The notes below the pieces were generated by a model, which searched no databases, had not been told where the DNA came from, and worked only from the letters and a program-made list of their open reading frames with translations. The position numbers and the translations under genes were made by a program. A DNA stretch of 64,000 bases, taken from positions 62,001-126,000 of the forward strand of contig NZ_LWSK01000002.1 of assembly GCF_001642955.1 (NCBI RefSeq), given 5' to 3'. Position 1 is the stretch's first letter, and each line of letters opens with the position of its first letter. This DNA comes from Rubripirellula obstinata. GTDB lineage: Bacteria; Planctomycetota; Planctomycetia; Pirellulales; Pirellulaceae. Shown piece by piece: positions 2,342-61,385 of this stretch.

Positions 2342-2502
2342 CTGTCTGGGCAACGCCGTGAAGTGTTTTGGCCTCGGAAAAAACGGGTTAGTTCGTTTAA
2401 CCGCGTGGGCATCGCCCCGCGCGTTTCGCCCCGCATGGACGCGCGGGGCGATGCCCACGCGGTTAAACAGTCCAGAAACCCTTCACGGCGTTGCTGTCTG
2501 GG
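2342..2502. mobile_element. R1 MITE-like element, copy A, with exact 9-bp target duplication
   Basis: The element spans 2351-2493 (143 bp). It begins CAACGCCGTGAAG and ends with the exact reverse complement, CTTCACGGCGTTG. The core is a hairpin at 2395-2468: two perfect 29-bp arms around a 16-base loop. Both sides carry the same 9-mer, CTGTCTGGG (2342-2350 and 2494-2502), as expected for a target-site duplication. It encodes no transposase. It fills most of the gap between the LuxR-type gene and the first XRE-NTF2 gene. Confidence 0.85.
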
Positions 2503-14185: not shown

Positions 14186-14345
14186 GTTTAGCCGCGTGGG
14201 CAACGCCCCGCGCGTTATGCTGGACCCGAACGCGCGGGGCGATGCCCACGCGGTTAAACGATTTAGAAACCCTTTACGGCGTTGGGCATCGCCCCGCGTG
14301 TTGTGCCCCGCATGGACGCGCGGGGCGATGCCCACGCGGTTAAAC
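14186..14345. mobile_element. R1 MITE-like element, tandem double copy (B and C), truncated
   Basis: Two R1 hairpin cores lie head to tail (14186-14259 and 14280-14345). The junction reads CCTTTACGGCGTTG, an R1 right end, running directly into the second core, whose left half is shortened. Neither the left terminal repeat of the first copy nor the right one of the last is present, and I see no flanking duplication. It sits just before the glycosyltransferase and contributes an artefactual N-terminal extension in that frame. Confidence 0.75.
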
Positions 14346-19760: not shown

Positions 19761-20215
19761 GTTTGGTCTGGTTGTTGTTCTACTGCGTTTCACTTCTGCC
19801 TTTGGGAGAGGTTGAGCCGAATAGTCCCGGGAGGGACGGAAGCCCTTTGCCGTGAAGAGTTTTGGTCCCGGAAAAAAACGTGTTAGTTCGTTTAACCGCG
19901 TGGGCATCGCCCCGCGCGTTCGCGGCCGCACAACGCGCGGGGCGATGCCCACGCGGTTAAACGATTTTGGAACCCTTCACGGCGTTGGAAGGAAGCCCTC
20001 TGCCGGGAATGTAAATCCCCGGATGTCGGCGTTGAATCTCCCTTTTTTCTCTGCCTCGGGCAGTGCGGTAGGCCCGGCCGCTCACGCGTCGCGGCTCACT
20101 TTAATCGACAGGCCATCGCGCACCCGGCACCGGGTTGCCGAGCCTTCGGGCCTGACGCCTAACTTGCAGTAACTCATGCGACGTTCCACGCAGGGGCGGT
20201 GAATGGTGAACGAAA
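19761..20215. other. Repeat-rich intergenic region
   Basis: 455 bases without a gene. It holds R1 copy D (19845-19987) and, at about 20060-20170, GC-rich hairpins of the GGCCCGGCC and CCCGGCACCGGG kind, resembling the hairpin building blocks of repeat R2. The paired GGGAxGGAAGCC and CTCTGCCGGG phrases around the R1 copy look like parts of a hairpin element that R1 interrupted. Confidence 0.55.
19838..19999. mobile_element. R1 MITE-like element, copy D
   Basis: Right terminal repeat CTTCACGGCGTTG intact (19975-19987); left end altered to CTTTGCCGTGAAG (19845-19857). Hairpin core at 19890-19962 with a shorter loop than copy A. The 9-mer GGAAGCCCT occurs at both ends (19838-19846 and 19991-19999), offset a few bases from the terminal repeats, which suggests a target duplication with later change at the junctions. 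Confidence 0.7.
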
Positions 20216-20759: not shown

Positions 20760-21671
20760 ATGCCATTCCTTTTCACTTGTCCGCACTGCGAAACGAAAAC
20801 ACAAGTTGACGACCAGTACAGCGGCAAACAAGGCCAGTGCGTTTCTTGTGGTGGCGAAATCACGCTGCCGCGTTTCGCGAGTGCCACCAAGACAAAGTCA
20901 AAACCCGCGCGGCGTGATTCAAAACTGATCAGCGTGCTTGCTGCGACTGCGGTGTGTTCGTTGATTCTGGGCAGCCTGCTTTTTGCGATCATTCGTTTTG
21001 GCGGTCAAACAATGGCGACGTTGTCGAACAGTCGCGAGCAAACCACATCGATGCGCAATCTGGAAAAAATTGCGGCAGCGATGAACGCTTATGCTGCCGA
21101 CCATGGTACCTACCCCGCACCGATGACCGTCAATTCCAACGGCACTCCCCTGCACTCTTGGCGAGTTCTGTTGTTGCCGTATTTGGGCGAAGAAGATCTG
21201 TACGATCGCATCAACCTGCGACTGCCGTGGGATCATGCCGAGAACGCGATGGTGATGCAGTATTCCGCGCCTCTGGTCTATCAACATCCCAGTTCGACCA
21301 ATAACGGATTTGGATCGGGACCAGCTTACTTCTTGATCACGGGAACAGGCACATTGTTTCCGCCCACCGGACCGCTGTCGCCGAATGACGTGACCGATGA
21401 TGTGACGCAAACGTTGTTGGTGGTCGAAGGATCGCCAGTCACGCCGCCGATGTCTTGGGCTGAACCGGTTGACTTGCCCTTTTCGATGATGACCGGCCGG
21501 TTGGCTGGCAACCCCGGCAGCGAACCAGGCGGGTTATTGGAAGGCGGCGTAGCGGCGGCAACGGTGGACGGCCGCGGTCACTTCATCCGCGACGAGATCG
21601 CTCCGGCCGATTTCTTGTCGCTGGTCACACCCACCGGCGGCGAACGACTAAGAGACGATACGCTCGATTGA
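20760..21671 (+). CDS. Zinc-ribbon, membrane-anchored DUF1559-type protein
   Basis: 303 residues from ATG. A zinc ribbon opens the protein (CPHC at 8-11 and CVSC at 27-30), followed by a basic stretch, one membrane span (~57-80) and a pilin-like DUF1559 region: MRNLEKIAAAMNAYAADHGT, then HSWRVLLLPYLGEEDLYDRI and PWD. These proteins are very abundant in planctomycetes and are usually thought to be pseudopilin-like; the role is unknown. This one has a zinc ribbon instead of the usual prepilin cleavage signal, so it is a variant. Divergent from dtd. Confidence 0.85.
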   Translation: MPFLFTCPHCETKTQVDDQYSGKQGQCVSCGGEITLPRFASATKTKSKPARRDSKLISVLAATAVCSLILGSLLFAIIRFGGQTMATLSNSREQTTSMRNLEKIAAAMNAYAADHGTYPAPMTVNSNGTPLHSWRVLLLPYLGEEDLYDRINLRLPWDHAENAMVMQYSAPLVYQHPSSTNNGFGSGPAYFLITGTGTLFPPTGPLSPNDVTDDVTQTLLVVEGSPVTPPMSWAEPVDLPFSMMTGRLAGNPGSEPGGLLEGGVAAATVDGRGHFIRDEIAPADFLSLVTPTGGERLRDDTLD

Positions 21672-21684
21672 GAAGGTGTTGAAC

Positions 21685-21720
21685 ACGCGGCCCGATGGGC
21701 ACTCGGGCACGCGGTTAAAC
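21685..21720. repeat. R1-derived fragment
   Basis: Only the right half of an R1 core remains (ACGCGGCCCGATGGGCA and then GCACGCGGTTAAAC). It shares the CGGCCCGATGGGCA variant with the remnant at 57727-57795, so the two come from the same sub-lineage. Confidence 0.6.
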
Positions 21721-38712: not shown

Positions 38713-38950
38713 CGTTGTGGTTGCGTTGACATGGTCCGGGCCGCGAACGCGCACGCCCGCCTTAGATTCTAAGCATTCCGACGGCTAGGCTTTGTTAGTC
38801 CCGAAGGGACGAAAGCACGGTGCCGGGTGCGGAGCACCCGGAAACAACGCAAAAAAAACTCTCCGCCTCGATCGATCGGCGGCGAAGCCGCCGATCGATC
38901 GAGGCGGAGACAAAGATGGGGGCAGCATGTTCCGGGTGCTGACCGGCCTG

Positions 38951-39054
38951 TCGATTAAATCATAGATCCAAATTTATAGTCGCCTTTTGCTCCGCAAAAG
39001 CAGCGTTTGTGGACGCATCTTTCGCAGAGCGAAAGGCGACTATGAATTAATCGA
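38951..39054. repeat. R3 hairpin element, copy 1
   Basis: Core 38978-39041: AGTCGCCTTTTGCTCCGCAA on the left, ending GCGAAAGGCGACT on the right, with a short GC-rich centre. Outer arms CGATTAAATCATAG (38952) and CTATGAATTAATCG (39040) extend the palindrome. It lies within R2, at a point where the other R2 copy is continuous. Confidence 0.7.
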
Positions 39055-39079
39055 CGAACCGTGACGCATTCGGCAAAGG

Positions 39080-39239
39080 GCTGTCACCCAACGCCGTGAA
39101 GAGTTTTGGTCCCGGAAAAACCCATTGCTTTGTTTAACCGCGTGGGCATCGCCCCGCGCGGTTCGCCCCGCATGGACGCGCGGGGCGATGCCCACGCGGT
39201 TAAACAATTTAGAAACCCTTCACGGCGTTGGTTGTCGCC
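39080..39239. mobile_element. R1 MITE-like element, copy E, inserted in R2
   Basis: Element 39089-39230 (142 bp), both 13-bp terminal repeats perfect, hairpin core 39132-39205. Flanks: GCTGTCACC (39080-39088) and GTTGTCGCC (39231-39239), seven of nine matching, as an aged target duplication. The uninterrupted R2 at 61116-61153 reads through here with one copy of the 9-mer. Confidence 0.85.
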
Positions 39240-47473: not shown

Positions 47474-47606
47474 TCAACAGGGCTCCGACGACGTTAAATT
47501 AGTAGCCCAGACTATAGGCTTAGATTGGGGAAATGAGTAGATCCCGCGAAGTAACTTCCGATGTAATCAACAGCAGTTGGGGCTAGCGGTCGGTCGCGTC
47601 AATGTC

Positions 47607-47670
47607 AGTCGCCTTTCGCTCCGCGAAAGAAGCGTCCGCTAACGCAGCTTTTGCGGAGCAAAAGGCGACT
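47607..47670. repeat. R3 hairpin element, copy 2
   Basis: AGTCGCCTTTCGCTCCGCGA on the left, with the complementary arm ending GCAAAAGGCGACT on the right, in inverse orientation relative to copy 1 at 38978. It lies between the divergent-facing 5' end of thiC and the cytochrome gene's 3' end. Confidence 0.65.
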
Positions 47671-47687
47671 ATTTGATGCAACTCGCT

Positions 47688-54132: not shown

Positions 54133-54614
54133 GCGGTGTTAAGAAATTCACCGAGATACTGTTTTGGCAACGTGCGAGAGATTGGTCGAAAGAGATATTC
54201 TTTCTGACAAAGGAAAAACCATTTGCCTCCGACCGTCGCCTAGTCACTCAAATCAACGACTCGTCTGAATCAACAATGGCAAATATCGCTGAAGGCTTTG
54301 GTCGCGGAACTCAAGGTGAGTTTATTCAGTTTTTGGGCTATTCGATGGGCAGTTTGCTGGAAACACAATCGCACCTGGTCGCAGCATACGACCGCGAGTA
54401 CATCGATGCGGAGACGTATCGCCGATTGTTCAACGAAGGAACGTCGATCCGAAGAATGATGATCGCATTTATGAAATCGATGAAGAAGCACGGGTCAGGC
54501 GTCAAGCACATCAAACCGCCGTACAAGAGCTGGTCGAGCGAGGTGTGGGAGATGTACGAGAAGTTTACCGGAGAGAAGCGACCAGAGATGTTTCAAGAGG
54601 ACAAGAAGACGTAA
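54129..54614 (+). CDS. Four-helix-bundle protein of the S23/IVS-encoded family, inside the his operon
   Basis: 161 residues, overlapping hisD by four bases (ATGA), so translation is likely coupled. The family pattern is clear: ILFWQRARDWSKEIFFLTKE, QINDSSESTMANIAEGFGRG (conserved S-x-x-x-N-I-A-E-G-x-G-R), and FIQFLGYSMGSLLETQSHLV. Such proteins are pentameric four-helix bundles; they are often encoded in 23S rRNA intervening sequences or scattered in genomes, and their function is unknown. Its C-terminal half is longer than usual (KSWSSEVWEMYEKFTGEKRP). Its stop abuts the heptanucleotide array. Confidence 0.88.
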   Translation: MSGVKKFTEILFWQRARDWSKEIFFLTKEKPFASDRRLVTQINDSSESTMANIAEGFGRGTQGEFIQFLGYSMGSLLETQSHLVAAYDREYIDAETYRRLFNEGTSIRRMMIAFMKSMKKHGSGVKHIKPPYKSWSSEVWEMYEKFTGEKRPEMFQEDKKT

Positions 54615-54744
54615 GTACTCAGTACTCAGTACTCAGTACTCAGTACTCAGTACTCAGTACTCAGTACTCAGTACTCAGTACTCAGTACTCAGTACTCAGT
54701 ACTCAGTACTCAGTACTCAGTACTCAGTACTCAGTACTCAGTAC
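54614..54744 (+). repeat. Heptanucleotide tandem array (AGTACTC)n in the his operon
   Basis: About 18-19 uninterrupted copies of AGTACTC, beginning at the stop of the four-helix-bundle gene and ending just before hisC. No stop codon occurs in any plus-strand frame; each frame reads (YSVLSTQ)n. Such arrays change copy number by slippage. Confidence 0.95.
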
Positions 54745-54802
54745 GATGGCTATGCTTTGTCCACCTAGCGGTCAACCCAAACCCCGACCATTTTCCAACT
54801 CC

Positions 54803-57275: not shown

Positions 57276-57745
57276 GATTCAGGTTGCCTCAGCAACACAA
57301 AATCTCGCTCGCCGCGATTCTTCAAATGCAATTGCGTCCGCAATTGCTGGCCGCGGTAGTCGGATTCAAGCGTAAACCAGCGGTCGCGTCCATCTCGCAA
57401 ATTCACATACCTGCCCACTGAAAACGTGGCGTCACGAGCGGGAAAATGGTTGATGTAGCGAAACGAATCATCGACATCGAGACTGCCGAAGAAGGAATCG
57501 ACGAAGCCAGGCGGCACATCATTCACCTCCGTCCGATTGGCAAAGTTGTACATTGCCGGGATTGGAAACTGTGCGGCGAATCGCATAAACGATCCGCTTC
57601 GAAGATGAAAACGATGCATCGTTGCATTGGCGATCGCGGGAACGATCGGCATTAGCAACAGCCAGGTTGCGATTGCGGCGACAGAAAACAAGATCGCAAT
57701 GAAGCCGATATCGTTTTTCAAAACTTCGTTAAGCCGCGTGGGCAT
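57272..57745 (-). CDS. Small membrane-anchored protein partner (start in R1 remnant)
   Basis: 157 residues from ATG 57745. One membrane span (~13-35), then an extracytoplasmic-looking domain with FVDSFFGSLDVDDSFRYINH and RDRWFTLESDYRGQQL. Family unknown. The ATG and first residues (MPTRLNE) are encoded by an R1 remnant; the upstream frame to 57811 is repeat-derived. The true original start may have been lost or lies at a TTG just downstream. Overlaps the HTTM-like gene by four bases. Confidence 0.65.
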   Translation of the reverse strand: MPTRLNEVLKNDIGFIAILFSVAAIATWLLLMPIVPAIANATMHRFHLRSGSFMRFAAQFPIPAMYNFANRTEVNDVPPGFVDSFFGSLDVDDSFRYINHFPARDATFSVGRYVNLRDGRDRWFTLESDYRGQQLRTQLHLKNRGERDFVLLRQPES

Positions 57746-57795
57746 CACCCCGCGTTTCCCAGCAGACGCGCGGCCCGATGGGCACGCGATTAAAC
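57727..57795. mobile_element. R1-derived remnant (copy G)
   Basis: Degenerate R1 core: GTTAAGCCGCGTGGGCATCA on the left and GCGGCCCGATGGGCACGCG with ATTAAAC on the right. The terminal repeats are gone. It overlaps the 5' end of the minus-strand gene at 57272-57745. Confidence 0.7.
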
Positions 57796-60798: not shown

Positions 60799-61385
60799 GC
60801 ACACGTCGTCCAAGAGTCGAAAATCGGATCAAGTGCAGTGATTATCAACCAGAGATCAGCATGCGGCTAGGCGGGGAAGATTCCAACGCCACGAAGAGTT
60901 TGGTCCAGTGAAAACCTATTGTTTTGTTTAGCCGCGTGGGCATCGCCCCGCGTGTTTCGCCCCTCGTGTTTCGCCCCGCATGGACGCGTGGGGCGATGCC
61001 CACGCGGTTAAACAGTCCAGAGACCCTTCACGGCGTTAGGAAGATTCACCGCGGTCGTTGGAGTCTTGGCTTTGCAGATCGTCCAGCTTAGAAACGTTAT
61101 CAATGCTGCGCAAACCAGCTAATCTAGCCGCGGAGCGGTGACAGCTCTTTGCCGGGTGCGCAGCACCCGGTTCATGCCGCCCCATGTTTATTTATCTCAG
61201 CCTCGATCGATCGGCGGCTTTGCCGCCGATCGATCGAGGCTGAGAGGGTTGTTGGTTGCATTGTTTTCGGGTGCTGCGCACCCGGCACCGAGCTTTCGTC
61301 CCTTTGGGACTAACAGAGCCTGGCCGTCGGCATGCTTAGGTCCTAGCTGGACCCGCTCTTTAACCGAATTGAGTATCCCTAATCC
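60799..61385. repeat. Repeat region with R1 copy F and uninterrupted R2
   Basis: No gene. R1 copy F occupies 60884-61038. The uninterrupted R2 lies at 61116-61338 on the minus strand, ending with CCAGCTAATCTAGCCGCGGA at 61116. Its hairpins include CCTCGATCGATCGGCGGC with its complement (61202-61241) and two CCGGGTGC/GCACCCGG pairs. Confidence 0.75.
60875..61047. mobile_element. R1 MITE-like element, copy F, with exact 9-bp target duplication
   Basis: Element 60884-61038 (155 bp): left end CAACGCCACGAAG, right end CTTCACGGCGTTA, each one base off the consensus. The hairpin core (60926-61013) has a longer loop in which TTTCGCCCC is duplicated. Flanking 9-mer GGAAGATTC is identical on both sides (60875-60883 and 61039-61047). 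Confidence 0.85.

Follow-up and report, generated by a model that had tools for sequence, protein, structure and literature searches.

The repeat and its surroundings in the window

The window, that is, the whole 64,000-nucleotide stretch of DNA analysed here, corresponds to G000:C112:62001-126000 in a draft assembly (G000) of 6.58 Mb and 307 contigs. It contains copies of a non-coding unit of about 143 bp, in which perfect 13-bp terminal inverted repeats (TIRs) enclose a long palindrome. This element is of the ordinary kind of miniature inverted-repeat element (MITE), its unusual trait being an interior made of a separate palindrome. Four full copies, announced in a preliminary description of this DNA, were found at 2351-2493, 19845-19987, 39089-39230 and 60884-61038, and their sequences bear out the 13-bp TIRs and the long central hairpin. 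The unit has no coding capacity, about 143 bp being too short for a transposase. ORFs that carry a Pfam domain flank each of the four full copies. The first has a LuxR-type regulator on one side and an HTH/SnoaL protein on the other, the second a YdjM and a DUF1559 protein (ORF 20760-21668), the third a PALP enzyme and an SNF2 helicase, and the fourth an amidase and a histidine kinase. Some putative ORFs of the mechanical ORF list overlap MITE copies. An Rfam scan of the window returned no family at the gathering score, and a tRNA search of the window found none. The features are the following, with the strand in brackets where there is one.

2342-2350: left 9-bp target duplication CTGTCTGGG of copy A, from the sequence
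2351-2493 (+): copy A of the MITE (143 bp), TIRs perfect over 13 bp, core of the palindrome at 2395-2468
2494-2502: right target duplication CTGTCTGGG of copy A, from the sequence
14186-14284 (+): left-truncated MITE, core and right end CTTTACGGCGTTG, abutting a second core, by reading
14285-14345 (+): rest of the second core, starting with target-like GGCATCGCC; putative nested-insertion product
19835-19843: left duplication GACGGAAGC of copy 19845, one extra tip base allowed, by reading; 3/9 without the slip
19845-19987 (+): MITE copy, left end damaged
19988-19996: right duplication GAAGGAAGC of copy 19845, 8/9 with the slip
21685-21720 (+): half of an asymmetric (non-MITE) palindrome
39080-39088: left duplication GCTGTCACC of copy 39089
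39089-39230 (+): MITE copy, 142 bp, perfect 13-bp TIRs
39231-39239: right duplication GTTGTCGCC of copy 39089, 7/9
57728-57795 (+): standalone asymmetric palindrome without MITE ends
60875-60883: left duplication GGAAGATTC of copy 60884
60884-61038 (+): MITE copy, 155 bp, end mismatches 2 and 1
61039-61047: right duplication GGAAGATTC of copy 60884
61124-61158 (-): related empty site of the 39089 insertion, 32/35 bases equal to its joined flanks

The exact 9-bp repeats claimed for two copies are present at 2351-2493 (CTGTCTGGG twice) and at 60884-61038 (GGAAGATTC twice), as is the 7-of-9 pair claimed for a third (GCTGTCACC/GTTGTCGCC around 39089-39230). At 19845-19987, the pair GACGGAAGC/GAAGGAAGC matches at 8/9 only with one extra base at the left tip, and at 3/9 when counted from position 19845. 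Two other parts of the preliminary description had to be revised. The "tandem double core" at 14186-14345 does comprise two cores, but by reading it is a MITE truncated on the left, with its right end directly against GGCATCGCC within the second core. The segments 57727-57795 and 21685-21720, taken for MITE fragments, show an asymmetric form of the palindrome (L207 and L206), and no MITE end lies within 150 bp of either; they are copies of the inner palindrome and not pieces of the MITE.

Copies and target duplications across the genome

The MITE is present in dozens of copies in G000. With up to two mismatches allowed, there are 431 occurrences of the 13-mer on each strand (reversed pattern: 164 and 147). 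The 19-mer CAACGCCGTGAAGRGTTTY, which fits the ends of both the MITE and the insertion sequence described below, has 182 perfect occurrences (95 + 87; control 0) and is present in 3 of 241 genomes of the family. Both ends are perfect in 20 copies, a strict pattern by which many copies are missed, and many contigs of this assembly begin or end inside copies.

Target duplications were counted in 59 TIR pairs of 125-175 bp from G000 loci and the window, with the core motif required and duplicates dropped by their flanks; up to three mismatches were allowed per end, and a few chance or rearranged pairs are among the 59. The flanking 9-mers match exactly in 22 pairs, at 8 or more of 9 positions in 31, at 7 or more in 35 and at fewer than 7 in 24, and no exact flank match of 5, 6, 7, 8, 10, 11, 12, 13 or 14 bp was found among the 59 pairs. 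Random re-pairing of the flanks (2,000 shuffles) gave a mean of 0.97 exact matches (maximum 5) and of 3.6 matches at 7 or more of 9 (maximum 10). Therefore, the 9-bp duplications are not due to chance, given 22 exact matches against a shuffled mean of 0.97 and none at other lengths. The preliminary description had made mobility depend on most copies being flanked by such duplications, which holds for 31/59 at 8 or more of 9 and for 35/59 at 7 or more. On the other side, the 24 pairs below 7 of 9 mean that many of the copies are old or recombined, or else are spurious pairs. At six loci (L002, L010, L011, L016, L020 and L041) copies lie beside a core, and one MITE end starts with CCG instead of CAA, differing at two bases, as if the tip had been replaced by core sequence.

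In size, TIRs and non-coding nature, the element resembles the bacterial MITEs described as sequences of 70-300 bp with TIRs of 15-30 bp and no coding capacity, moved by transposases that recognise the TIRs (PMC3733652). Compared with them, its TIR is slightly short (13 bp perfect, 17/18 when extended), and here a specific partner IS was identified, together with a same-ended MITE of another genus that has a different interior.

An insertion sequence with the same ends

The preliminary description had predicted an insertion sequence (IS) that makes 9-bp duplications and moves the MITE in trans. G000 has an IS with the same 13-bp ends and an IS4-type transposase, and among the MITE copies 9 bp is the dominant duplication length. 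A Pfam DDE_Tnp_1 profile scan of G000 gave nine matches, and at one of these loci the ORF is bracketed by exact copies of the 13-mer. This IS (G000:C266:24807-26399; 1,593 bp) has CAACGCCGTGAAG exactly at both ends, identical to the MITE 13-mer at 13/13 positions of either end. By reading, the MITE consensus and the IS are identical along the first 19 bases on the left and the last 18 on the right. The MITE is not a simple internal deletion of the IS, because their likeness is confined to the terminal 18-35 bp or so of the MITE. The open frame has 495 aa, or 484 aa for the transposase from its first ATG, and the protein scores 66.2 bits against PF01609 (cut-off 23) and 109.5 bits against the NCBIfam IS4 model NF033592, narrowly below the cut-off of 115. 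Residues D152, D239, Y332, R335, E339 and K346, which make up the catalytic D, D, E and the YREK motif (Y-2-R-3-E-6-K), are invariant in 8/8 aligned transposases. Of the IS1 and IS4 options offered in the preliminary description, IS4, whose transposase profiles were the ones searched, fits. A PDB sequence search with the transposase at E up to 1 gave no match; among plasmids, 58 records match it, all at less than 60% identity and none covering more than 80% of it.

There are at least five copies of this IS in G000. Those other than the C266 copy run into contig ends, their sequence being 100% identical along 73-127 bases, and the copies of contigs C303 and C52 lie within MITE cores. The outer flanks of the left ends are GGGCCTACT (C266), GGCTGACGA (C32), GACGACGCC (C261), GGGCTTCCC (C116) and GGCATCGCC (C303), and those of the right ends are GACGACGCC (C266), GGCTGACGA (C112) and GGCGATGCC (C52). 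Two of the three right ends thus have an exact 9-mer partner on another contig, namely GGCTGACGA (C32, C112) and GACGACGCC (C261, C266), and the third has none. The single full copy assembled (C266, L224) has flanks that agree at 2/9, with no duplication; its right flank equals the left flank of C261, and we read it as a probable chimeric assembly, short of proof.

As described in Table 1 of PMC2266710, IS4Sa elements measure 1150-1750 bp, end in CA------T, have the YREK motif and produce direct repeats of 8-10 bp. The partner IS is like them in its 1,593 bp, its CAACGCCGT ends, its Y-2-R-3-E-6-K motif and its 9-bp duplication, and it fits IS4Sa by ends, size and duplication length, a placement set by the features of that table. 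Direct repeats of about 10 bp are a trait of the IS4 family; here they are of 9 bp, in the two cross-contig pairs and in relatives. The string "planctomycet" is absent from the main text of PMC2266710.

The closest named relatives of the IS are records of Planctomycetota, Fuerstiella, Planctomicrobium and Rhodopirellula, which, with the DUF1559 protein of the window, suggests a planctomycete host. The five named loci that come closest are L108-L112. In four of them the transposase gene has CAACGCCGTGAMG at its left end, and two have exact 9-bp duplications, with flanks determined by eye (L109, CCTGAAAGG; L110, CCTGCCGGG); L108 has no duplication, and a contig end cuts L112 at the right and L111 at the left. 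At 1e-20, the transposase is found in 21 of the 241 family genomes, G000 included. The ends of 20 of these loci were sought within 450 bp, and four (L229, L232, L236 and L237) showed 16/16 TIRs starting with C(A/T)ACGCCG and exact 9-bp duplications. The flanks match at 8/9 in L238 and L240 and at 7/9 in L239, L228 has good TIRs without a duplication, and in nine others, some of them truncated where the contig stops, the ends were not clear; the G000 IS itself (L224) is among the 20. In L227 and L231, the TIRs are perfect and the flanking 9-mers are inverted, not direct (CCCAACGGG/CCCGTTGGG and CCCGGAGGG/CCCTCCGGG). Against the pairing of MITE and IS, G003, from the same genus as G000, carries a related IS (39% identity) in six copies and yet has none of these MITE ends.

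With a probability that we put at about 0.93, the repeat is a non-autonomous element with the ends of an IS4-type IS, mobilised in trans by the IS4-type transposase of the same genome, and its interior is an independent REP-like double palindrome. The IS transposase would bind the MITE ends, whose terminal 18 bp or so are those of the IS, and mobilise the element in trans. The element would then be joined to a 9-bp staggered cut, preferably at palindromic gGGYNNNGCCc, producing the 9-bp duplication, and the REP-like double palindrome would have come to lie between the IS ends. From sequence alone, the MITE and its IS can be described as a complete pair, together with the duplications, the preferred target and empty sites of the paralogous kind.

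A sibling IS is found at G000:C244 (L054, L103 and L104) and at L105 and L106, where the end reads CAACGCTATGAAG and the transposase shows 46% identity within residues 11-339. The MITE could have been moved by another IS with similar ends, either this sibling, as its related transposase and, by reading, the resemblance of the MITE subterminal TTTTGG..CCG.AAAA to its left end would allow, or an unassembled element. Nevertheless, the sibling end differs at 2/13 bases where the C266 end is identical, and no right end of the sibling was found in the locus read, making this alternative unlikely. The C266-type IS is thus preferred as the partner.

Target sites, nested insertions and empty sites

For G000 targets whose flanking 9-mers match in at least 8 positions (n=31), the consensus is the palindromic gGGYNNNGCCc: G stands just before the 9-mer in 26/31, G occupies its first two positions in 22 and 22, C its last two in 19 and 23, and C follows it in 20. 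Five targets from G188, a genome of another genus of the family, look similar. The hairpin of the MITE itself holds GGGCATCGCCCC, a close fit to this consensus, and the presence of target sites in its own hairpin accounts for the nested copies with GGCGATGCC, GGCATCGCC or GGCGTCGCC as duplications (L002, L010, L016, L017 and L139).

Joined targets fold more stably than nearby DNA (mean -5.7, n=31, vs -4.0 in 1,240 controls; resampling P 0.0002), an effect that is weaker once the six targets in the element's own core are removed (n=25, -5.0, P 0.028). Outside the 9-mer, dyad symmetry about the centre of the target reaches 3.3 pairs of 10 in 36 targets, five of them from G188, against 2.5 in controls (P 0.0002), and persists without own-core targets (n=30, P 0.0007). 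Insertion into hairpins in general was considered and reduced to a partial preference. ISRm22, an IS4Sa element, is a comparable case of an IS4-family member with palindromic, repeat-rich targets (PMC1525189, PMC2266710); all its counted copies lie in repetitive extragenic palindromic (REP) sequences, whereas here the preference is partial and the MITE itself bears a REP-like palindrome.

The joined flanks of 35 G000 copies (7 or more of 9) were compared with 838,716 bases from several genomes, overlaps included, and an uninterrupted relative at up to 7 mismatches in 35 was found for 11 of them; seven further copies matched their own junction only and were left out of this count. Of these empty relatives, six fall within the core of the element itself or a variant resembling it (L002, L010, L011, L016, L017 and L139), and the other five belong to different extragenic repeats (L005, L021, L022, L042 and L185). 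L022 is the window copy at 39089, and its empty relative lies in the window itself, at 61124-61158. The empty sites found are paralogous, not orthologous. An orthologous empty site of copy 2351 was not found: among the matches listed for the region around this copy, those of 21 same-genus genomes lie within the MITE only, the listing not extending to the single G012 match. A second copy exists for 11/35 insertion sites against 13/110 random nearby 35-mers, a modest excess, some of these 13 falling in other MITE copies or in one locus.

That sites with duplications lie in other repeats in 11/35 cases could suggest that the 9-bp flanks are a host repeat structure and that the copies spread by recombination instead of transposition. 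However, 24/35 sites have no second copy in the DNA searched, and what is missing from the empty sites is the element together with one 9-mer. Together with unique sites such as 2342-2502, this makes the host-repeat explanation very unlikely, indeed the least credible of those considered, and transposition remains the preferred reading.

The inner palindrome as a separate repeat

Among the matches listed, relatives cover positions 34-125 or so of the MITE, mostly 43-118. G003 has 300 core matches, in tandem arrays with a spacing of about 96-123 bp (by reading), and G027, from the same family, has 63; the 19-nt MITE ends are absent from both. A search of G000 for the palindrome in its asymmetric form, with up to two mismatches allowed, gave 12 hits (control 0). 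Two palindromes were counted twice, which leaves 10 places; 8 of these lack a MITE end within 150 bp, and the other 2 (L203 and L214) have one. The interior of the MITE therefore appears to be a separate repetitive palindrome that the element picked up.

Each half of the core folds alone. In 44 copies from a few arrays of G003, 91.5% of within-half pairs are kept against 19.3% of cross-half pairs in the same columns, and G027 gives 92.9% against 7.1% (7 copies). The values are 100% against 64% for 9 cores from the G000 loci of the asymmetric-form search, some of them MITE cores, and both are 100% for 6 cores of the window. Tandem copies are not independent, and these percentages are therefore supportive without being a statistical proof. 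Since within-half pairs are kept and cross-half pairs fail in relatives, the conserved unit looks REP-like, and the perfect long hairpin seems typical of the MITE, the REP-like half being the likely conserved unit. The core has the features of a REP-like dimer, with two inverted short hairpins, dispersed or in arrays. Dimers of the form TCGTTTAACCGCG..CGCGGTTAAACGA occur in G003 (L060, L069 and L071, in tandem) and G027 (L061, L066, L070 and L074), the halves swapping GG/CC and CC/GG independently.

The core resembles REPINs and the GTAG and CGTC REP dimers, as treated in PMC3733652, in its two inverted short hairpins, its conserved outer tag and its occurrence both dispersed and in arrays. 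It differs in that their outer tag is GTAG or CGTC and the core here has TCGTTTAAC, with no core beside 20 RAYT loci, one weak 16-mer aside.

These likenesses raise the alternative that the repeats are purely REP- or REPIN-like and spread by a RAYT (tyrosine transposase), the TIRs and duplications being incidental. The REP-like dimer structure of the core, the 15 Y1_Tnp matches in G000 and the conservation of halves instead of the long hairpin in G003 (the 91.5% vs 19.3% of the 44 copies) all speak for it. Nevertheless, within 1.5 kb on each side of 20 of the 47 listed Y1_Tnp matches (six genomes; 4/15 of those in G000), no core half was found except one 16-mer with 3 mismatches (L078), the MITE ends are those of the IS, and the 9-bp duplications disfavour a RAYT; to our knowledge, RAYT-moved REP elements are not expected to leave them. 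We regard this alternative as highly improbable. A RAYT was thus rejected as mover of the MITE, which we continue to ascribe to the IS4-type transposase, and may yet have spread the free core.

A second element with the same ends

G188 has 9 + 9 of the 19-nt ends and ten TIR pairs, eight of them 198-199 bp long, with flanks that match exactly in four and at 8 or more of 9 in five. By eye, the interior of this MITE is unlike the G000 core and contains halves of another palindrome, GTGAGCCG..GGCCGTAAGGCC. At up to two mismatches, this palindrome gives 31 hits in G000, 3 in G003, 18 in G188 and none in six other genomes. It lies free of MITE ends within 260 bp at 7 of the 8 G000 loci read, the other having an end about 160 bp off, and at 3/3 loci of G003, and all 9 G188 hits read adjoin MITE ends. 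A search of G188 for the transposase at 1e-20 gave no hit in an assembly that is 84% complete, a result that also weighs against the pairing of MITE and IS. A second dimeric palindrome family, GTGAGCCGCTGGCCGTAAGGCCTCGGG..CCCGGCCGCTTACGCGTCGCGGCTCAC, with 31 hits in G000 and 3 in G003, was observed at L246, L249, L252, L254, L256, L258, L260 and L262 of G000 and at L245, L248 and L251 of G003.

We tentatively suggest, at somewhat less than even odds, that an IS4Sa-type group with a preference for palindromic sites has repeatedly made REP-like palindromes the cargo of MITEs, since two genera share the MITE ends with different palindromes, each of which also occurs free of MITE ends in G000 or relatives. 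Counting against this suggestion, free copies of the palindrome were not seen among the 9 hits read in G188, and no transposase was found there. If capture did take place, a DDE transposase would offer a RAYT-independent route for spreading REP-like repeats, and thus a mechanism by which extragenic palindromes spread without a dedicated transposase; for CGTC repeats, PMC3733652 leaves the means of such spread open. BrickBuilt of Porphyromonas gingivalis is likewise a MITE that encloses another type of repeat, with a minisatellite and IS5-like TIRs where the element here has a REP-like dimer and IS4-type ends (PMC4596501). In the open-access literature, we found no paper on miniature inverted-repeat elements in Rhodopirellula, which is not to claim that the element is unpublished, and none joining repetitive extragenic palindromic sequences, MITEs and the IS4 family. 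The recurring palindrome cargo is the part that deserves specialist attention.

Other repeats in the window

Three further repeats were observed in the window. An array of the heptamer AGTACTC occupies 54614-54746, near the boundary of two ORFs. A repeat of about 146 bp with a 51-bp palindrome lies in opposite orientations at 38769-38914 and 61191-61339, near two MITE copies. Finally, a hairpin-like repeat of 86 nt containing ATAGTCGCCTTT is found in opposite orientations at 38976-39061 and 47587-47672, the two copies being 84% alike.
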